Positions 34,606-43,328 of a DNA stretch of 64,000 nt are shown in pieces. The stretch is from Methanolobus psychrophilus R15. GTDB lineage: Archaea > Halobacteriota > Methanosarcinia > Methanosarcinales > Methanosarcinaceae. A program made the position numbers and the translations under genes. Every line of letters begins with the position of its first letter. Position 1 is the first letter of the stretch. The notes beneath the pieces were generated by a model that ran no database searches, was not told the DNA's origin, and was given only the letters and a program-made list of their open reading frames with translations. The stretch spans positions 1,116,001 through 1,180,000 of the forward strand of contig CP003083.1 in NCBI GenBank assembly GCA_000306725.1. The letters run 5' to 3'.

Positions 34606-35958
34606 TCATGACCCAAGTTCGAGTTCCCTTAAGAATATAGCGGAAGATACAGTGTCACCAAGCCCTACGGTCGATACGGGATGAATGCATAACCTGGTCG
34701 GGACTACGCACACCGAATAGCCACGATATTCACCAATTATACCATTTTCCCGGTACTGAATCGGGATATTATCTTCCAGCTTTGCCATCTGCATCCTGCC
34801 GGTCTCACTTTCATCTATCCCGGAGGCGACTGCCAGCAAAGTGTTCCTGTCTGCCAGTTTCCCGGTACACGCAAACGCTGCTGCGCACTTGACACCAAAA
34901 TGCAGGGCTTCGAATGTTTTAACAGATTCAGAGGCCGATGTAGGGGAAACTGAAATCACAAACTCCCGGGTGTGGATAAGTATCCTCCTGATTCCGAAGG
35001 ATTCACATAAGGCTGCAGATGCCCGTATTATGGATAAGGCATCCATTTCAAGTATCCCGGAACTATCTATATTATACATACCCGCAAGCATGGCAAGTTC
35101 GTCCTCATTAATGCCAATACTGTCAACAAGGGGTGCCAGGCCTGAGAAGACAGCTGAGGCTATGCCTGCCGAGGAGAAATGGCCCAGTTCGGCATGTATA
35201 TGCAGCTTACTGTTCCGGTCTTTCCATGCCCTTAGCTGTTCCAGGGACCTGCGAAGCTTTCCCTCATATCCGCTGCCATCGGGATAGGTTTCCCGGAGCA
35301 TGTGGTATCCTGCTATCAGAGCACCATCTATCTCCTTGATGTTGCTGAAGGCGTACTTACTGAACTCTTCATCTATATGCAGCTCAAAGTTAAGGGGATC
35401 ATATGTGGCAATGAACCTGTTCTCCCTTGGCACTGACATCTCCTTCCCGCTGAGAAAGAAATTATCATCTTTGCTGAAATCGAATACGAAATGTATCATT
35501 TCATGAGCATATGCTGACGGCTCACTGTTATGGATATCGGAACTCCTTTTGAGGCTGCCTCCATCCGGGACGTATATCGCCCTGTCAGAGAAAAAGGACA
35601 TCTGCAACGGGGAAGGATTGGGAATGTTCGGTATCACCCTGGAAGCACCCAGTTCTGACAGGACATTTGCCATGATGCCCATATTGCCGCCCATGCGCAT
35701 GAAAGAACCTTCAAGAAAACTTGATTTGAGCCATTGGAAAACGTCCTCATCCCGAACCATCCATTCAGCTCCGATCCCATTCTGCATGCAGAGGAACAGT
35801 CCAGCAAAAAAGTCAGGTATCGATGATATCGAGCCGGGAGGCTTCTGCAACCTGGCAGATATCTCTTCCTCATAATCTTGAGCAAATGAACTCATCTGCA
35901 GGCCGTTCACCTTGTATATTGCATCGATGTTCGCATTATAAGCGCATAGGATTTTCAT
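34606..35958 (-). CDS. ADP-dependent sugar kinase family protein (second copy)
   Basis: A 450-residue member of the ADP-dependent glucokinase/phosphofructokinase (ribokinase-like) family. NANIDAIYKV opens it, FMRMGGNMGIMANVLSELGA is the substrate-side motif, and STVGLGDTVSSAIFLREL near the C-terminus carries the catalytic aspartate. The frame is open to 36117, but CCGGAG precedes the ATG at 35958, whose ATGA overlaps the stop of the paralogue upstream. It is clearly diverged from its neighbour (for example MGGNMG against MGGQAG), so substrate could be glucose, fructose-6-phosphate or another sugar. Confidence 0.82.
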   Translation of the reverse strand: MKILCAYNANIDAIYKVNGLQMSSFAQDYEEEISARLQKPPGSISSIPDFFAGLFLCMQNGIGAEWMVRDEDVFQWLKSSFLEGSFMRMGGNMGIMANVLSELGASRVIPNIPNPSPLQMSFFSDRAIYVPDGGSLKRSSDIHNSEPSAYAHEMIHFVFDFSKDDNFFLSGKEMSVPRENRFIATYDPLNFELHIDEEFSKYAFSNIKEIDGALIAGYHMLRETYPDGSGYEGKLRRSLEQLRAWKDRNSKLHIHAELGHFSSAGIASAVFSGLAPLVDSIGINEDELAMLAGMYNIDSSGILEMDALSIIRASAALCESFGIRRILIHTREFVISVSPTSASESVKTFEALHFGVKCAAAFACTGKLADRNTLLAVASGIDESETGRMQMAKLEDNIPIQYRENGIIGEYRGYSVCVVPTRLCIHPVSTVGLGDTVSSAIFLRELELGS

Positions 35959-37445
35959 GTATGCTCCGGACATTTTTCCCCTTTGTCTTTGATCTTGGTC
36001 AGCAGGGCTATAAAGGCACCTGCAGATATGGCATCCCCTATGCCTACGGTGCCCGCAGGCTTGTCGACGACCTTTGTCGGCACGATTACAAGGCTGTGTC
36101 CCATGGCATTGATGCATCCGCTCTCGAACTCATCCATCGAGCATACCCCTTTGCGCACAAGGTAGGTAGCCAGGCTGCCAAGGTCCTCGTGGCCTTTCTC
36201 ATAGACAGGCACTTTCAGGCCTTCCTTTGTGTCGTCAATACTATTGATATGTCCAATGGAAGCCTGGGTAGCCGCCAGTATCGAAGCAAACAGCAGCGCA
36301 TCGCGGTGACCTTCCACATCTACCGGATGGTCCCGGGAAACAAGACTGATATAATGTCCCAGGGAATGGATGTTGACAACCTGAAGCTGCAGGTCTTTTA
36401 GCAGCCTGACGGCCCCCTCGTACAAGGCGACCACGCTCTTCTCGTCCTTACTCATGACCGCGAATGCCAGCTCCTCGTATCCAAGCACGTTGAGTGCATT
36501 AGCAACTTCAACTGTGTCAAGACCAAGGGATGTAGCATGCTTTTTGACTATATCGGTCAGGATGGCCTTGCGAATGACACGGTTCTGTATGGATGTGAAC
36601 TCAACGTGTATCTGCATCCTGGGGTTGCACTGTTTTAGCCTGGTGATGACATTGACTGCCTTCTCCACATAATAGCTGTATGTTGTGCCATCATCGTATT
36701 CTTCCTTTATCATCTGGTAGCCTGCAAGCAGAGCCCCGTCTATGCTCTGCCTTATCTGCGGGAGCCGCTCGTAGAGCTCATTGCTCATGTCTATGTGAAG
36801 CCAGTCCGGCCGGGAGGATATGATGAGGCGGTTATCCCTGGGAACTGTGAAACATTCTCCTGCACAGCAGACATTGGTACCTTTTGAGTATTCTAATATC
36901 CAGTTTACCTTGGGTTTGAGTTGATGATCATAAACTTCCTTTGGGTGCTTCAGAACAAGATTACCGCCCTCTACAGCCGGATGCCTGAGATTGGGAGAAT
37001 CCACAAAATACTCCGCCTGCTCCTTTGATAACCAAGGCACATATGTGATGACATTCTGTATTCCCAGGTTTGCCAGCAGGTTGGACATGATACCTGCCTG
37101 CCCCCCCATACGTGCCCGGTCAAAACCAAGATTGTCCATTAACCATTCATGGAGGTCTGTGTTGTAAGTAGGCACCTCTGCCGCTTTCCCGTCACGCATG
37201 GATATGACCAGGCGAGCCATGAGATCCACGGGGTCCTTTATCTCCCGAGGGTACTGAATGACCTGCTCCTGAATGGTACTGCACCCAAGAATACCGATGA
37301 GTTTCCTCATTTCGTCTTCACTGAGACGCTTGATAGCATCTATATTACTATTATAAGCAACAAAAACCCCGCGTATATCCTTTAAAGAACGAGTGATATT
37401 TACATAGGCGTCTTCGTAGTGTTTTTCCCAGTCCTGTATCTCCAT
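35955..37445 (-). CDS. pfkC: ADP-dependent phosphofructokinase/glucokinase
   Basis: A 496-residue ADP-dependent kinase. YNSNIDAIKRLSE, RARMGGQAGIMSNLLANLG and GTVGIGDAISAGAF (catalytic Asp in GIGD) are the family motifs. In Methanosarcinales such enzymes phosphorylate fructose-6-phosphate (and often glucose) with ADP, in glycogen breakdown through a modified Embden-Meyerhof path. GGTGA lies 5 bases before the ATG at 37445; a GTG three codons upstream is less likely. A TATA box (CTTATATATG, about 37485-37494, minus strand) precedes it. The tandem pair probably arose by duplication. Confidence 0.86.
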   Translation of the reverse strand: MEIQDWEKHYEDAYVNITRSLKDIRGVFVAYNSNIDAIKRLSEDEMRKLIGILGCSTIQEQVIQYPREIKDPVDLMARLVISMRDGKAAEVPTYNTDLHEWLMDNLGFDRARMGGQAGIMSNLLANLGIQNVITYVPWLSKEQAEYFVDSPNLRHPAVEGGNLVLKHPKEVYDHQLKPKVNWILEYSKGTNVCCAGECFTVPRDNRLIISSRPDWLHIDMSNELYERLPQIRQSIDGALLAGYQMIKEEYDDGTTYSYYVEKAVNVITRLKQCNPRMQIHVEFTSIQNRVIRKAILTDIVKKHATSLGLDTVEVANALNVLGYEELAFAVMSKDEKSVVALYEGAVRLLKDLQLQVVNIHSLGHYISLVSRDHPVDVEGHRDALLFASILAATQASIGHINSIDDTKEGLKVPVYEKGHEDLGSLATYLVRKGVCSMDEFESGCINAMGHSLVIVPTKVVDKPAGTVGIGDAISAGAFIALLTKIKDKGEKCPEHT

Positions 37446-37559
37446 GCGTTTCACCCAATGAATAGAGATTATGTAAGGAATTCATATATAAGGATTGGAT
37501 GTGGAGGGGTCTGGGAAAGATTTTCCGCAAGGTCGAGTAAAGAGTCAGGGAAACTGAAG

Positions 37560-38483
37560 ATGGCAGGAGGGTATCTCTCGGACCATCTTGGCAGCACTAC
37601 TTTGCTTGTCAACGAGAGTGGCCTTGAGGTCGAGCGGACAGAGTACTTCCCGTACGGTCAGGTGCAGTCAGGTGGATTGGAGAAGTATGGATTTACCGGA
37701 CAGGAGAATGATATTGATATTGATACTGGGTTGATGTACTATGGTGCAAGGTACTATTCACCGGAGTACAGGATTTTCATACAGCCGGATACGATGCTGC
37801 CGGACCCGTACAATCCTCAGGCTCTGAACAGGTATGCTTATGCGCTGAATAATCCGGTGAAGTATACTGATCCGAGCGGGCATATACCACAGCTTGCAGC
37901 ATTAGTTGGTGGACTCATATTAGTTGCCAGAGTAATGTCGGTCATTTCTATTGTGAGTGATATAAAAGCTTGGAATAACTACGAGATAAGCACTGAGGAA
38001 TTGATAGCCAACTCTGCATTTAATGGGCTAGGTTGTATAGGAGGAGGATCTCTTAAAATATTTGGTGGTACAACATACATACAAGGTTTAAGTAAGGTAT
38101 ACCAAAAGGATAAACAAATGGGAGTTGCTGTTGCGATTGTAAAAGGCATACGTGCTACTTTTGATGATGTGGCTGTATTCACTGCTAAGGATGGACCACT
38201 TGCATTAGGAAAATATGCAGTCGATAATATAGGTTCGGGTATAGGAGCTACAATTGAAGAAAATACTGCCGGAAGAACAAGACTGGGTGATACATCAAGC
38301 AGTATCAAAGCTTCAGTTTCAAACGCTGCAAGTAGTACCAAGACTTCAATTTCAAGCGCCACAAGTAATATCAGTTCTTCAATTTCAAGCGCTGCAAGTA
38401 GTATTAGCTCTTCAGTTTCAAGCGCCGCAAGTAGTGCTAAAGCTGTAGTCGGAAACACAATAAACCGCTTATTAAGAAAGTGA
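37560..38483 (+). CDS. Orphan RHS core with unknown C-terminal tip (toxin-like)
   Basis: A 307-residue protein. Residues 4-108 are an almost complete RHS-repeat-associated core: YLSDHLGSTTLLVNESGLE, TEYFPYGQV, FTGQEN, DTGLMYYGARYYSPEYRIFIQPD, then NPQALNRYAYALNNPV and DPSGH, which marks the usual core/tip border. The tip (109-307) is not a domain I know: a hydrophobic stretch (111-131), Gly-rich segments and a Ser/Ala/Ile repeat of 11 residues. The frame runs upstream to 37419, but that part covers the pfkC promoter and lacks RHS features, so I start at the ATG at 37560. The N-terminal YD-repeat shell and secretion signal are missing, so this is an orphan tip cassette; expression is unproven. 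Confidence 0.6.
   Translation: MAGGYLSDHLGSTTLLVNESGLEVERTEYFPYGQVQSGGLEKYGFTGQENDIDIDTGLMYYGARYYSPEYRIFIQPDTMLPDPYNPQALNRYAYALNNPVKYTDPSGHIPQLAALVGGLILVARVMSVISIVSDIKAWNNYEISTEELIANSAFNGLGCIGGGSLKIFGGTTYIQGLSKVYQKDKQMGVAVAIVKGIRATFDDVAVFTAKDGPLALGKYAVDNIGSGIGATIEENTAGRTRLGDTSSSIKASVSNAASSTKTSISSATSNISSSISSAASSISSSVSSAASSAKAVVGNTINRLLRK
37570..37683 (+). repeat. RHS core direct repeat, copy 1
   Basis: This 114-base block matches 39417-39530 with about 94 identical positions by eye and no gap. It encodes the YLSDHLGS...PYG part of the core. Homology stops abruptly after the codons for GLE. Such shared core blocks allow recombination that swaps tips. Confidence 0.8.
38317..38448 (+). repeat. 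Four 33-bp tandem repeats in the RHS tip
   Basis: Four consecutive 33-base units begin at 38317, 38350, 38383 and 38416, each opening TTTCAA(A/G)CGC. They encode an 11-residue unit of the form SISSAASSISS. An 11-residue period suits a long amphipathic helix or right-handed coiled coil. The units differ mainly at third codon positions, so they are not a very recent expansion. Confidence 0.85.
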
Positions 38484-38563
38484 GATTGATAACAGATATA
38501 CATATTGATGTAAGCATGCAACTACCAATGAATAGGAATCGTAGAACACTTTAAGGTGATCTG

Positions 38564-39151
38564 ATGGAGATAACACAGTTGACAGAATTAGAACTCACGA
38601 CTAGAATCCCAAAGGAGAAACTGGTGCCCGCTATCTGCGATTTCTATTGGGACATGGGTCATAAAAAAATAGTATTAACTAGAGGTTCAGATGATGATGA
38701 AACTTTAGAAGATTACGATCCAGTGAAGGGAATTGAAAATATAGGTCAAATATCAGAAATTTCGGTTTTGACACGCAAACAAAAGAGAAAAAAACTGGGA
38801 TTTGGTTCTGTGCAAATAACCATTAAAGGAGGGATATTTGAAATTAAAATAACGTGGGGTGTAGAGATGAAAAGGAGAGTGTTTCATCTATATGCAGTTT
38901 ATGTCTTAGTTTCTTTTATTGTTTCGATATATTATGGTTGGAACATGTGTCCCATTGATTCTTTTTGGCGCAAGTATTGTGCCGCTTTATTCGCAACAGC
39001 TTTTATATTCATTTTGATTTTACCGGCTTACTATTCATTCAATCGTTCAATTGAGAAAATCAATTCACATCCAAGCACAGAGAGATACAAAACGGATTTT
39101 GAAGAGTTCATTCGCAAAAAGGAGAAGGAATTGCTCTCTGAGAGATATTGA
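38564..39151 (+). CDS. Two-TM membrane protein, candidate immunity protein of the RHS tip
   Basis: A 195-residue protein with a soluble acidic N-terminal part (1-105), two transmembrane helices (about 107-125 and 138-158) and a charged tail ending KKEKELLSERY. I know no homologous domain. A strong ribosome binding site AAGGTGAT lies 3 bases before the ATG. It follows the RHS tip gene at 80 bases on the same strand, the place where immunity genes sit in RHS loci. Its DNA is visibly more AT-rich than its neighbours, as is common for tip/immunity cassettes. Immunity function is inference from position only. Confidence 0.55.
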   Translation: MEITQLTELELTTRIPKEKLVPAICDFYWDMGHKKIVLTRGSDDDETLEDYDPVKGIENIGQISEISVLTRKQKRKKLGFGSVQITIKGGIFEIKITWGVEMKRRVFHLYAVYVLVSFIVSIYYGWNMCPIDSFWRKYCAALFATAFIFILILPAYYSFNRSIEKINSHPSTERYKTDFEEFIRKKEKELLSERY

Positions 39152-39531
39152 GTGGATGAAATTAATCCAGGCATAATCACCGCTCCAGTCATCAACGACG
39201 CAAACCAGTTAAGTGAGGTCCGTTATTCGGGTAACAGTTCCCTTGTGGAGAAGTACTGGTATGATGCCAACGGCAAGAGGGTAAAGAAACAGAATGCTGA
39301 GGGTCAGTTTAGCTACTATGTCAACCAGTTTTACGAGATCGAGAATGGCACAGCAACCAGCTACTTCTTCCGTGACGACGAGCGCATAGCCAAGCAGACA
39401 GCCGAAGGCATGGAGTGGTATCTCTCGGATCATCTGGGCAGCACCACTTTGCTCGTCAACGAGAGCGGGCTTGAAGTCGAAAGCACTGAGTATTACCCAT
39501 ACGGCTAGGTGCAGTCAGATGGTCTGGAAAA
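39152..39531 (+). pseudogene. Broken second RHS fragment (YD repeat and start of core)
   Basis: From about 39165 the frame encodes RHS/YD-repeat sequence (RYSGNSSLVEKYWYDANGKR, then FSYYVNQFYEIENG and FFRDDERIAKQTAEG) leading into the core (YLSDHLGSTTLLVNESGLEV). An in-frame TAG at 39506-39508 replaces the CAG of the first copy, and RHS homology ends at about 39530, soon after. There is no own start signal; the frame merely opens after the stop of the membrane protein. GC content is higher than in the tip and immunity genes. It looks like the leftover of the resident RHS gene. Confidence 0.75.
39417..39530 (+). repeat. RHS core direct repeat, copy 2
   Basis: Second copy of the 114-base core block, 1847 bases after the first. 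It carries the change from CAG to TAG and ends within the codons after GLE. Confidence 0.8.
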
Positions 39532-39568
39532 TATGTTTTTTGCAGCCATGTCAGCTACAGAACCGGCC

Positions 39569-40510
39569 TCACAAAAGACCGGTCGTCTCATCCATGCCAA
39601 GCATTATGTTCATGTTCTGGATAGCCGCACCTGAGGCACCTTTCCAGAGATTGTCCAGGCGGGATATTACCTGTATCTGCTCCCCGTTACCGTAAATGTA
39701 GAGGTCCAGATAGTTGGTGTCGTTGCTTCCCTGCACATCAAACGCATTTTCCACCAGATATTTTGTCTCATCGACTGCATGAATGCGGATGAAGATAGAG
39801 TTGCCATAATACTTCTGATAGAGCTCATACAGGCCCTGCTTCGTCAGGGGTTTTTCCAGATCCTTCACGGACAGGGGCAGTGTGACAGCCAGTCCCCTTG
39901 GATAATTGGAAACCACCGGCATGAAAATGGGCTTGACTTTAAGACCGGAGTGGACCATTATCTCAGGCACATGCTTGTGGTTCAGCCCCAGAGCGTACTG
40001 CCTTGGTGCTTTGTATGCCCTTTCTGTCGTAGTCTCATAGGTCTCGATCATCTTTTTCCCGCCGCCGGTATATCCGGTGATGGAGAACAGCGGGACAGCT
40101 GTTTCCCGGGAAATGATGCCTTCCTCAAGCAGGGGATACAGGGCAACTATGGACGCCGTTGCATGGCAGCCGGGATTGGAGACCCTGCTTGCTCCGGCAA
40201 TCTTATTCCTGTGTGCGGCGGAGAGCTCGGGAAGCCCGTAAGCCCATGTTTCACTCACCCGGTTGGCTGTGGATGCATCAATTATCTTTGTATTCGGGTT
40301 TGTGATCAAACCTACCGCCTCTGCGACCGCTTCATCCGGCAGGCACAGGAATACCAAATCGGCCTCATTGAGCAGCTTCTTCCTTAATTCTTTGTCGTGG
40401 CGTTTCTCATAGGGGATTTCCAGAATCTCCACTTCCGGATGATCCGCCAGACGCTCGTTCACCAGCAGACCTGTAGTCCCGTGCTGGCCGTCCACATATA
40501 TCTTGCACAT
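39569..40510 (-). CDS. argC: N-acetyl-gamma-glutamyl-phosphate reductase, type 2
   Basis: A 313-residue enzyme of arginine biosynthesis: NADPH-dependent reduction of N-acetylglutamyl phosphate. The catalytic cysteine is C115 in SNPGCHATAS. The sequence is of the short type 2 ArgC, with KIYVDGQHGTTGLLVNERL at the start, LCLPDEAVAEAV, STANRV and SITGYTGGGKKMIETYE, rather than the longer type 1 common in archaea. GAGGA stands 6 bases before the ATG at 40510; the open frame upstream to 40558 is unused. It follows argJ at 16 bases. Confidence 0.9.
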   Translation of the reverse strand: MCKIYVDGQHGTTGLLVNERLADHPEVEILEIPYEKRHDKELRKKLLNEADLVFLCLPDEAVAEAVGLITNPNTKIIDASTANRVSETWAYGLPELSAAHRNKIAGASRVSNPGCHATASIVALYPLLEEGIISRETAVPLFSITGYTGGGKKMIETYETTTERAYKAPRQYALGLNHKHVPEIMVHSGLKVKPIFMPVVSNYPRGLAVTLPLSVKDLEKPLTKQGLYELYQKYYGNSIFIRIHAVDETKYLVENAFDVQGSNDTNYLDLYIYGNGEQIQVISRLDNLWKGASGAAIQNMNIMLGMDETTGLL

Positions 40511-40526
40511 TGTCTTCCTCAACAGA

Positions 40527-41711
40527 TCAGGTCGTATAATCAGCGTTGATCCTAACATAATCGTAGGTCAGGTCACAGCCCCAGGCGGTTGCGCTCTCGT
40601 GTCCCATGCCAAGGTCGGTTATGATGAAAACCTCGTCCTGGGACATGATGGATTTCAGCTGGGCCAGCGTAGCCTCGTCGTTGCGTACAACCTTACCGCT
40701 CTTCACAAGCTCCACTACCTCAGTGCCAGCTGAGAATGACAGGGAGATCTTCGTCTGGTCCATATTGGCACCGGAATAGCCGGCTGCAACTACGATGCGG
40801 CCCCAGTTGGGGTCCTTACCAAAGATAGCGGATTTCACCAGCGGGGAGCGGACTATTGATTTTGCAACAAGGCGGGCATCCTCCACTGTGGCTGCACCGG
40901 TTACTTTTGACTCGATCAGCTTTGTGGCTCCTTCACCATCAACAGCTATCATCTTGGCAAGCTCGGTCAGCACAAGATCAAGACCGGACTGGAAATCTGC
41001 AATCTCAGGACCGATACCTGAGCTTCCGGTAGCTGTCAGCAGCGCCATGTCATTACAACTGGTGTCACCATCCACAACCACCATATTGAAGCTCTTGTCC
41101 ACGGCTGTTGTGAGAGCTGACTGCAGTTCTTTCGACGGGATTTGGGCATCGGTGTAGATAAAGGCAAGCATGGTGCCCATGTTGGGCTCGATCATTCCTG
41201 AACCCTTGGCAATACCTGCGATACGGATACCGGATTCCATCTCAATGGCTATCTCCTTGGGAACTGTGTCAGTGGTCATGATCGCACGTGCTGCCCTCAT
41301 GCTGGCTGCTGCATCCTCGCCCATGGAGTCCAGCGCTTCCTGAAGATGAGCACTGATCCAGTCAGTATCGAGTTTGCGCCCCACTACACCTGTTGAGGAC
41401 ACGCCTATAAGCTCCTCGTCAACTCCTAGCCTGGATGCCAGCAGGGAAGCCATGGTCCTTGCATCAGCCATGCCCTGCTCGCCCGTGAAAGCATTGGCAT
41501 TGCCACTGTTAACGATGACGCCTGAGAGCCTGCCGGTCTTTGCCAGACGCTCCCTAGTAAGCATCAAAGGAGCTGCAATGACCTTGTTCCTGGTAAAGGC
41601 CCCGGCAGCGTTTCCTTCTGCCTGTATGACCGCAATTCCCATCTTCCCGGGTTTGATGCCGCCGGCACGTACGCCCTTAACCGCACATATACCGCCTTCA
41701 ATGAAGTTCAT
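40527..41711 (-). CDS. argJ: Glutamate N-acetyltransferase / amino-acid acetyltransferase
   Basis: A 394-residue ornithine acetyltransferase. The self-cleavage site and nucleophile lie in MIEPNMGTMLAFIYTD (T180), where the precursor splits into alpha and beta chains. It moves acetyl from N-acetylornithine to glutamate and thus closes the cyclic arginine pathway; some forms also use acetyl-CoA. GGGGGATC precedes the ATG at 41711, ten bases after the CBS gene stop. Order CBS, argJ, argC on one strand indicates an operon. Confidence 0.95.
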   Translation of the reverse strand: MNFIEGGICAVKGVRAGGIKPGKMGIAVIQAEGNAAGAFTRNKVIAAPLMLTRERLAKTGRLSGVIVNSGNANAFTGEQGMADARTMASLLASRLGVDEELIGVSSTGVVGRKLDTDWISAHLQEALDSMGEDAAASMRAARAIMTTDTVPKEIAIEMESGIRIAGIAKGSGMIEPNMGTMLAFIYTDAQIPSKELQSALTTAVDKSFNMVVVDGDTSCNDMALLTATGSSGIGPEIADFQSGLDLVLTELAKMIAVDGEGATKLIESKVTGAATVEDARLVAKSIVRSPLVKSAIFGKDPNWGRIVVAAGYSGANMDQTKISLSFSAGTEVVELVKSGKVVRNDEATLAQLKSIMSQDEVFIITDLGMGHESATAWGCDLTYDYVRINADYTT

Positions 41712-42577: not shown

Positions 42578-43328
42578 GGTGATTGTTTGCCGACTACCCA
42601 TAATAAAGGAAAAGGGCATTGTTAATTAAGTATAGTTAGTTCATTATTTCTATACTTCATCAAAAGAAGAACAGAGTATTTTAGCATTTCAAGACTCTTA
42701 GTATAACATTTTGTTTTTCTTCGTAATCTTGCCAGAAAGTGCCTGAATATGCTGTTATATCCTTCCACTGTATAGGTTTCTGCTTTTGATCGTGTATGAA
42801 CCTCATCTGGAAGAAACTCTGCATATGCTTTCCAGTTATCGGTCATCACTTTCCCTATCTCTTTCTTCTCTAGTTTCTCCCAGAGCTTTTGTCCTGTTTT
42901 GGTTCCCCTGCTACCAAAAGAGCAGTTGATGAATTTTTTCCCAGCTCTATCAACAGCAATCCAGATCCAACAATATTTTTTTTGTTTCCAATATAAGTAT
43001 GCATTTCGTCTAATTCAACGATCTCTATCTCGTTTTCGCTTTTTAGATCCTCTAATTCCTGTCCGAATGTCTTTATCCAATTTTGAACCGAAACATGACT
43101 TACTCCTAAAAAACGTCCTATTGAACGAAATCCCAATCCTTCAAGGTATAGCTGTAAAGCTTGTCTTTTAACGGAGGGAGGAGAGGCAGTAGACTTAAGT
43201 TCTACTGTATAATTGTATCTACATTCATGGCATTGATAGCGTTGGAGTCCATTGATTTTACCGTTCTTTTTGTTATTAAAGCTATTGCACTTGGGACAAT
43301 TCACGCTTTATGTGTAGGCAATCATAAT
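42578..43328 (-). mobile_element. IS1-family insertion sequence
   Basis: About 750 bases carrying an InsA/InsB-like transposase. The left end GGTGATTGTTTGCCGACTAC resembles the reverse complement of the right end (TATGATTGCCTACACATAAA), giving imperfect terminal inverted repeats. Boundaries are accurate to a few bases only. No target-site duplication could be found by eye, so flanking bases may have diverged or the ends be slightly off. The element separates the CBS-arg operon from the SIMPL gene. Confidence 0.75.
42622..43304 (-). CDS. IS1-family transposase, probably made by -1 frameshifting
   Basis: The first frame (43304 down to 42870) encodes an InsA-like zinc ribbon (CPKCNSFNNKKNGKINGLQR...CHEC), a helix-turn-helix (GFRSIGRFLGVSHVSVQNWI) and the start of the catalytic domain (IVELDEMHTYIGNKKN). 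In the -1 frame the catalytic domain continues without a stop as YCWIWIAVDRAGKKF to MTDNWKAYAEFLPDEVH and a C-terminal KTKCYTKSLEMLKYS. The join falls at an A8 run (plus-strand T8, 42976-42983), a slippery site A-AAA-AAT. The fused product would be 227 residues, the usual size. A plain decay mutation in the run is the alternative. Confidence 0.8.

Follow-up and report, generated by a model that had tools for sequence, protein, structure and literature searches.

An orphan RHS cassette with a candidate membrane-acting tip and immunity partner in the methanogen Methanolobus psychrophilus R15

A 64,000-base stretch (the window, bases 1,116,001–1,180,000) of the single-contig genome of M. psychrophilus R15 (3,072,769 bases, 99.97% complete) contains an orphan cassette of an RHS polymorphic toxin system, not a working system. 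The end of an RHS protein runs into a 199-aa tip, which is followed on the plus strand by a gene for a 195-aa partner with two transmembrane (TM) segments and by a truncated second RHS piece (Table 1). We favor, at a probability of roughly 0.55, the reading that the cassette encodes a polymorphic RHS toxin acting on membranes, orphaned in this genome, and that the partner is its immunity protein.

Organization of the locus in R15

The frame at 37560–38483 encodes 307 residues, consisting of approximately 104 residues of RHS end, the DPSGH motif and the tip (residues 109–307). The gene order given in the initial annotation was recovered, including the tip after DPSGH, the membrane partner gene with a strong ribosome binding site and the second truncated core. 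Its description of the first core as almost complete was not, as this piece is the C-terminal end only, corresponding to the last ~100 residues of an RHS protein (residue 2412 onward of a 2,736-aa relative), though the 76-position RHS-associated core domain within it is whole (TIGR03696 model positions 1–76 of 76, 70 bits in a protein family search). The second piece matches residues 2342–2462 of the same relative and stops at an in-frame TAG after YPYG. The two pieces share an overlapping core segment of ~130 bases that is 82% identical. Tip and partner are AT-rich compared with the cores, as had been noted (G+C 0.395 and 0.354 versus 0.495 and 0.493 for the core pieces).

Table 1. Coordinates of the RHS cassette and its neighbors in the window
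Feature	Position	Strand	Basis
RHS C-terminal end (RHS-associated core domain to DPSGH)	37571..37883	+	TIGR03696, 70 bits; relatives' core similarity from ~37,562–37,570
RHS tip, 199 aa, proposed membrane-acting toxin	37884..38483	+	Same tip ends relatives' full-length RHS proteins
33-bp tandem repeat, 4.2 copies, coding for 11-residue repeats of the tip tail	38296..38435	+	TRF
Partner-gene Shine-Dalgarno GGTGATC, ending 2 nt ahead of ATG	38555..38561	+	Position; also precedes second-copy partner
Partner, 195 aa, two TM helices, proposed immunity protein	38564..39151	+	Adjoins every tip found
Displaced truncated RHS core fragment, TAG at 39506–39508	39152..39542	+	Same fragment in G056
Insertion between ADP-glucokinase-like gene and argC	37505..39558		Empty sites in relatives; left-flank similarity stops ~37505
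ADP-glucokinase-like gene	35955–37454, starts 37454	minus	Left neighbor of insertion
argC	39569–40558, ends 39569	minus	Right neighbor of insertion

The flanking genes are what we take, from our own reading of their sequences, to be an ADP-glucokinase-like gene and argC. The gap between tip and partner is 80 bases, and the Shine-Dalgarno sequence in it is good for archaea; across the window, matches of the GGTGATC type occur at chance level, and it is the placement before the partner ATG that counts. No evident ribosome binding site was found at the tip gene's own start. A sigma-70 scan gave no excess over shuffles and concerns a promoter type not right for archaea.

When the 2,736-residue relative was used as query, the ~2,400-residue delivery part of the RHS protein was missing both at the locus and throughout the 3.07 Mb genome, in which the matches were the tip gene, the second piece and a remnant at a second locus; a protein family search gave one RHS-associated core match in R15. 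Matches to query residues about 1090–1350 and 1814–1981 lay within GLUG-type repeats of other genes. Because R15 lacks a delivery protein, the tip–partner pair is an orphan cassette, not an intact weapon.

The remnant belongs to a second tip–partner copy at 2,959,173–2,960,582 of the genome, which carries a shortened core piece and whose tip (186 aligned codons) and partner are 91% and 84% identical to those in the window. The start of this tip has been lost at an IS630 element, and the tails of the two tips differ by one 33-bp unit. Two further partner paralogues (37–39% identity) lie in tandem near 135 kb, giving R15 four partner genes. Two near-identical IS630-family elements, each in two frames, were located at L013 3975–5013 and 15624–16662, one of which cuts the tip. 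An IS1-family transposase split into two frames lies at 42622–43304 of the window, a few kb from the RHS cassette, and a close relative of it adjoins the second RHS region of R15 (L013 10883–11565).

The comparison of the two copies bears on the main rival to a toxin cassette, namely that the locus is debris: a non-functional RHS-array fragment that recombination and IS activity have left behind, its two genes neither expressed nor under selection. We regard this as unlikely, if the most serious competitor. The core truncated at both ends, the premature stop in the second RHS piece, the IS630 interruption of the second copy and the tip without a Shine-Dalgarno sequence are all as expected of debris, and omega between the copies was not significantly below neutral (tip 0.46, interval 0.21–1.08; partner 0.62, 0.34–1.13; the observed values were attained in 6% and 10% of neutral simulations, respectively), such that purifying selection was not clearly evident. 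Against decay, both genes are open in both copies with indels in multiples of three, whereas under neutrality the tip would remain stop-free with a probability of 0.35 and the partner with one of 0.07; in addition, the partner Shine-Dalgarno sequence is intact in both tip-linked copies, and four partner genes have been kept. Substitutions in the partner were concentrated in the soluble part (44 in 98 codons versus 11 in 95 elsewhere), where omega was 0.71 with a wide interval, and which therefore does not demonstrate diversifying selection.

Tip and partner in related genomes

The search at the level of the taxonomic family covered 112 genomes and that at the level of the phylum 393. The tip was found at six loci in four genomes and the partner in 10 of the 393 genomes, both only in Methanosarcinaceae among the genomes searched; the viral contigs searched contained no relative of the partner. 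The partner directly follows all six tips, at distances of 19–242 bp. Recurrence in R15 and in three relatives, always as tip then partner, indicates that the arrangement is more than chance.

In these relatives, the tip ends full-length RHS proteins of 2,736 aa (Methanolobus sp. isolate Soudan_28, G049), 2,578 aa (G059) and over 2,700 aa (G033). The Soudan_28 protein matches TcdB_toxin_midN, FG-GAP and RHS repeats, and its N-terminus appears signal-like in our reading. Tips and partners are exchanged as modules: 9 of the 27 Methanolobus genomes encode RHS-associated cores, the tips behind them are of many kinds, with one matching Colicin-DNase and the WHH nuclease, and in G059 a tip and partner of the R15 type close an array whose two preceding cassettes carry different tips and partners. 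The comparison of relatives proposed in the initial annotation thus gave different tips behind the same core, not one invariant tip. The toxin/immunity/displaced-core order that it had recognized is supported as a polymorphic island in Methanolobus, in which tips, array composition and site vary, and not as an intact weapon in R15.

Partner genes without a tip comprise the two tandem genes of R15 and others in G064, G061, G060, G063, G041 and G056, with that of G060 lying just upstream of an RHS fragment that bears another tip. By analogy, this is the pattern expected of orphan immunity genes. G060 also encodes tandem ~340-aa membrane proteins (L041 802–2989) with weak similarity to the C-terminal half of the partner; these are perhaps members of the cellular family that gave rise to it. 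In both G041 and G064, partner genes have paralogous secreted proteins (SFERYGGEEFTPQ...) in their vicinity (L050 3183–5443 and L047 11658–12530).

Anatomy and proposed action of tip and partner

Five of the tips begin with a hydrophobic stretch (19-residue Kyte-Doolittle maxima of 1.6–2.3 for these five tips with intact starts); the sixth is the second R15 copy, which has lost its start. The middle of the tip contains AWN..E.ST and has EENT..xTR.GD at its end in most, with G033 more divergent. In the window, the middle domain ends EENTAxxTRLGD and is followed by an amphipathic tail of 11-residue repeats with a basic end. Such repeats terminate five of six tips in differing compositions (Ser/Ala, Thr/Ser/Lys or Tyr/Asp/Ala), with an 11-residue autocorrelation of 0.39–0.56 in these five. 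The hydrophobic moment of the tails was 0.32–0.44 at 98 degrees versus 0.07–0.12 in shuffles and was reached by 0 of 2,000 shuffles. Shuffling single residues sets a low bar, since repetition by itself amplifies the moment that one unit has; that amphipathic repeats recur in divergent tips is a better argument than the shuffle test. The C2 tip of G059 lacks the repeat tail, so the tail is not essential to every version of the tip.

In a low-confidence structural model of the tip (pLDDT 44.7), the tail was predicted as one long helix (pLDDT 58–75), with little else. For the tip, nothing in Pfam or NCBIfam passed the threshold, PHROGs and PADLOC gave no credible family, and no toxin domain matched; for the partner, no credible family in Pfam, NCBIfam, PHROGs or PADLOC. 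PDB sequence profile searches gave no credible match. Tip matches to ZorA, RFC, apolipoprotein and tape-measure proteins were set aside as weak or due to the low-complexity helical tail, and, for the partner, a match to SPC12 (E 0.028) fell below the cut-off and covered the TM part only.

The profile searches that had been recommended gave no credible sequence family for either protein; for the partner, the structure-based search gave a modeled likeness. The partner model, built from two sequences (pLDDT 71), begins with a strand, a helix and five strands, continues into a TM hairpin and closes with a helix. Its 50 best VIA matches were nearly all SRPBCC (Bet v 1/START-type) proteins with Z scores of 8.6–9.8, and alignments to most chains listed spanned about 110–118 residues (top match Z 9.8, rmsd 2.8, 114 residues); the best Foldseek match was marginal (E 0.005). 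In our reading, the model resembles an SRPBCC-like domain into which a membrane hairpin is inserted ahead of the last helix. It differs from SRPBCC/START/Bet v 1 proteins in that the TM hairpin interrupts the domain and there is no sequence match, with SRPBCC absent from the 25 Pfam families listed for 14 partner members. No immunity protein of the SRPBCC type came up in a literature search.

Both the hydrophobic segment conserved near the N-terminus of the tip and the amphipathic tail add weight to the hint of membrane action, which had first been drawn from a hydrophobic segment, Gly-rich stretches and a two-TM neighbor. In the mechanism we propose, a secreted RHS protein of the relatives would bring the tip to a neighboring cell, where its hydrophobic segment and long amphipathic helix would insert into the cytoplasmic membrane of the target and break its integrity. 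As these archaea have no outer membrane, the tip would need no entry into the cytoplasm. The partner would be an immunity protein anchored in the producer's membrane via the TM hairpin, and its SRPBCC-like groove may capture the amphipathic helix. The R15 cassette would have come as a 2 kb insertion or have been trimmed later; having lost the delivery protein, it now most likely provides, at most, an orphaned immunity gene next to a tip that goes undelivered. In R15, the partner may still be protective, and the tip is probably undelivered.

We consider it quite improbable that the tip is non-toxic, a structural surface anchor of the archaeal RHS protein whose membrane insertion or export is aided by the partner. 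The tip has no enzymatic motif and a helical tail that is weakly tape-measure-like, and the partner is a membrane protein always linked to it, all of which would suit an anchor; however, another tip in the equivalent position is, judged by homology, a toxin (Colicin-DNase), and the solitary partner genes suit immunity better than a dedicated chaperone. Less probable still, and highly doubtful, is an intracellular toxin-antitoxin module in which the cell produces the orphan tip internally, using the tip's own start, and the partner neutralizes it, the way Salmonella orphan rhs toxin/immunity pairs act (PMC7043789): a TATA-like ATATATAAG upstream of the tip frame (near 37482–37492) would favor it, but this element lies within sequence common to the empty-site relatives and so probably serves the divergent glucokinase-like gene, the tip start has no ribosome binding site, and a membrane-acting tip would need to act from inside.

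Among working systems, the proposed membrane-acting RHS toxin cassette has its nearest analogue in Tse5, a pore-forming Rhs toxin that Pseudomonas aeruginosa delivers by the T6SS and which shares with the R15 tip a hydrophobic RHS tip without enzyme signature and a proposed action on membranes (PMC10684867). This likeness is functional only: the tips contain hydrophobic or amphipathic segments of predicted membrane-inserting type, whereas delivery of Tse5 is by a bacterial T6SS, the available portion of that report describes no 11-residue-repeat tail, and pore formation by the R15 tip is putative. With RHS polymorphic toxin systems in general (PMC3482391), the locus shares a variable tip after a DPxG core end, an adjoining partner gene, displaced cores and cassette arrays; it differs in the lost delivery part of the R15 genome and in a tip and partner that matched no Pfam, NCBIfam or PADLOC family. 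Salmonella orphan rhs modules (PMC3967940, PMC7043789) also consist of a tip and immunity gene behind a short core piece without a delivery part, but a full-length rhs beside the orphan can take up its tip there, and R15 has none. As RHS toxins and cassette islands in Methanosarcina acetivorans were noted by Zhang et al. 2012 (PMC3482391), the kind of island is already known; the new parts are the tip family, the partner family and the idea of a split SRPBCC domain.

Archaeal contact weapons are little studied, and this locus offers a specific candidate pair of toxin and immunity protein. Makarova et al. reportedly worked on archaeal polymorphic toxins in 2019. The resources at hand are full-length carriers in relatives, empty sites and the orphan state in a near-complete genome, and an archaeal-membrane toxin with a membrane-bound protector would, if true, be useful for studies of archaeal competition. 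More speculatively, and unlikely as a whole, the pair could represent a new kind of contact toxin confined to archaea, in which a helix of 11-residue repeats, comparable to the amphipathic helices of lipid-surface proteins, attacks ether-lipid membranes, a split-SRPBCC immunity protein traps the helix, and some genomes keep protectors without the weapon.

The insertion site

The site is empty in eight Methanolobus relatives (G055, G040, G057, G045, G060, G061, G042 and G062), in which argC and the glucokinase-like gene are separated by about 100–290 bases without RHS; the insertion in R15 is ~2 kb, and the left flank up to ~37505 is common to R15 and these relatives. G056 contains the same RHS piece with the same argC junction, but another gene pair (341 and 214 residues) upstream. 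The overlapping RHS pieces and the variation at the site fit an array reshuffled via homologous recombination, for which the order of events cannot be told.

The pair in G056 had no Pfam, NCBIfam or PADLOC match. A conserved pair of a 341-aa protein with a winged-helix look and a 214–251-aa protein was observed beside RHS fragments in G056 (L130 14–1780), R15 (L013 12524–14060) and G059 (L045 9002–10769), with 94% and 84% identity among the three copies of the 341-aa protein. The 214–251-aa protein carries a nucleotidyltransferase-like GGWAVDS..DIDL motif. The pair, damaged in L013, looks like a toxin-antitoxin-type cassette carried along with RHS arrays. In G049, a WD-repeat-like protein encoded twice and a duplicated piece of the glucokinase-like gene occupy the argC site (L132 6115–8787), so this intergenic site has accepted other DNA as well.
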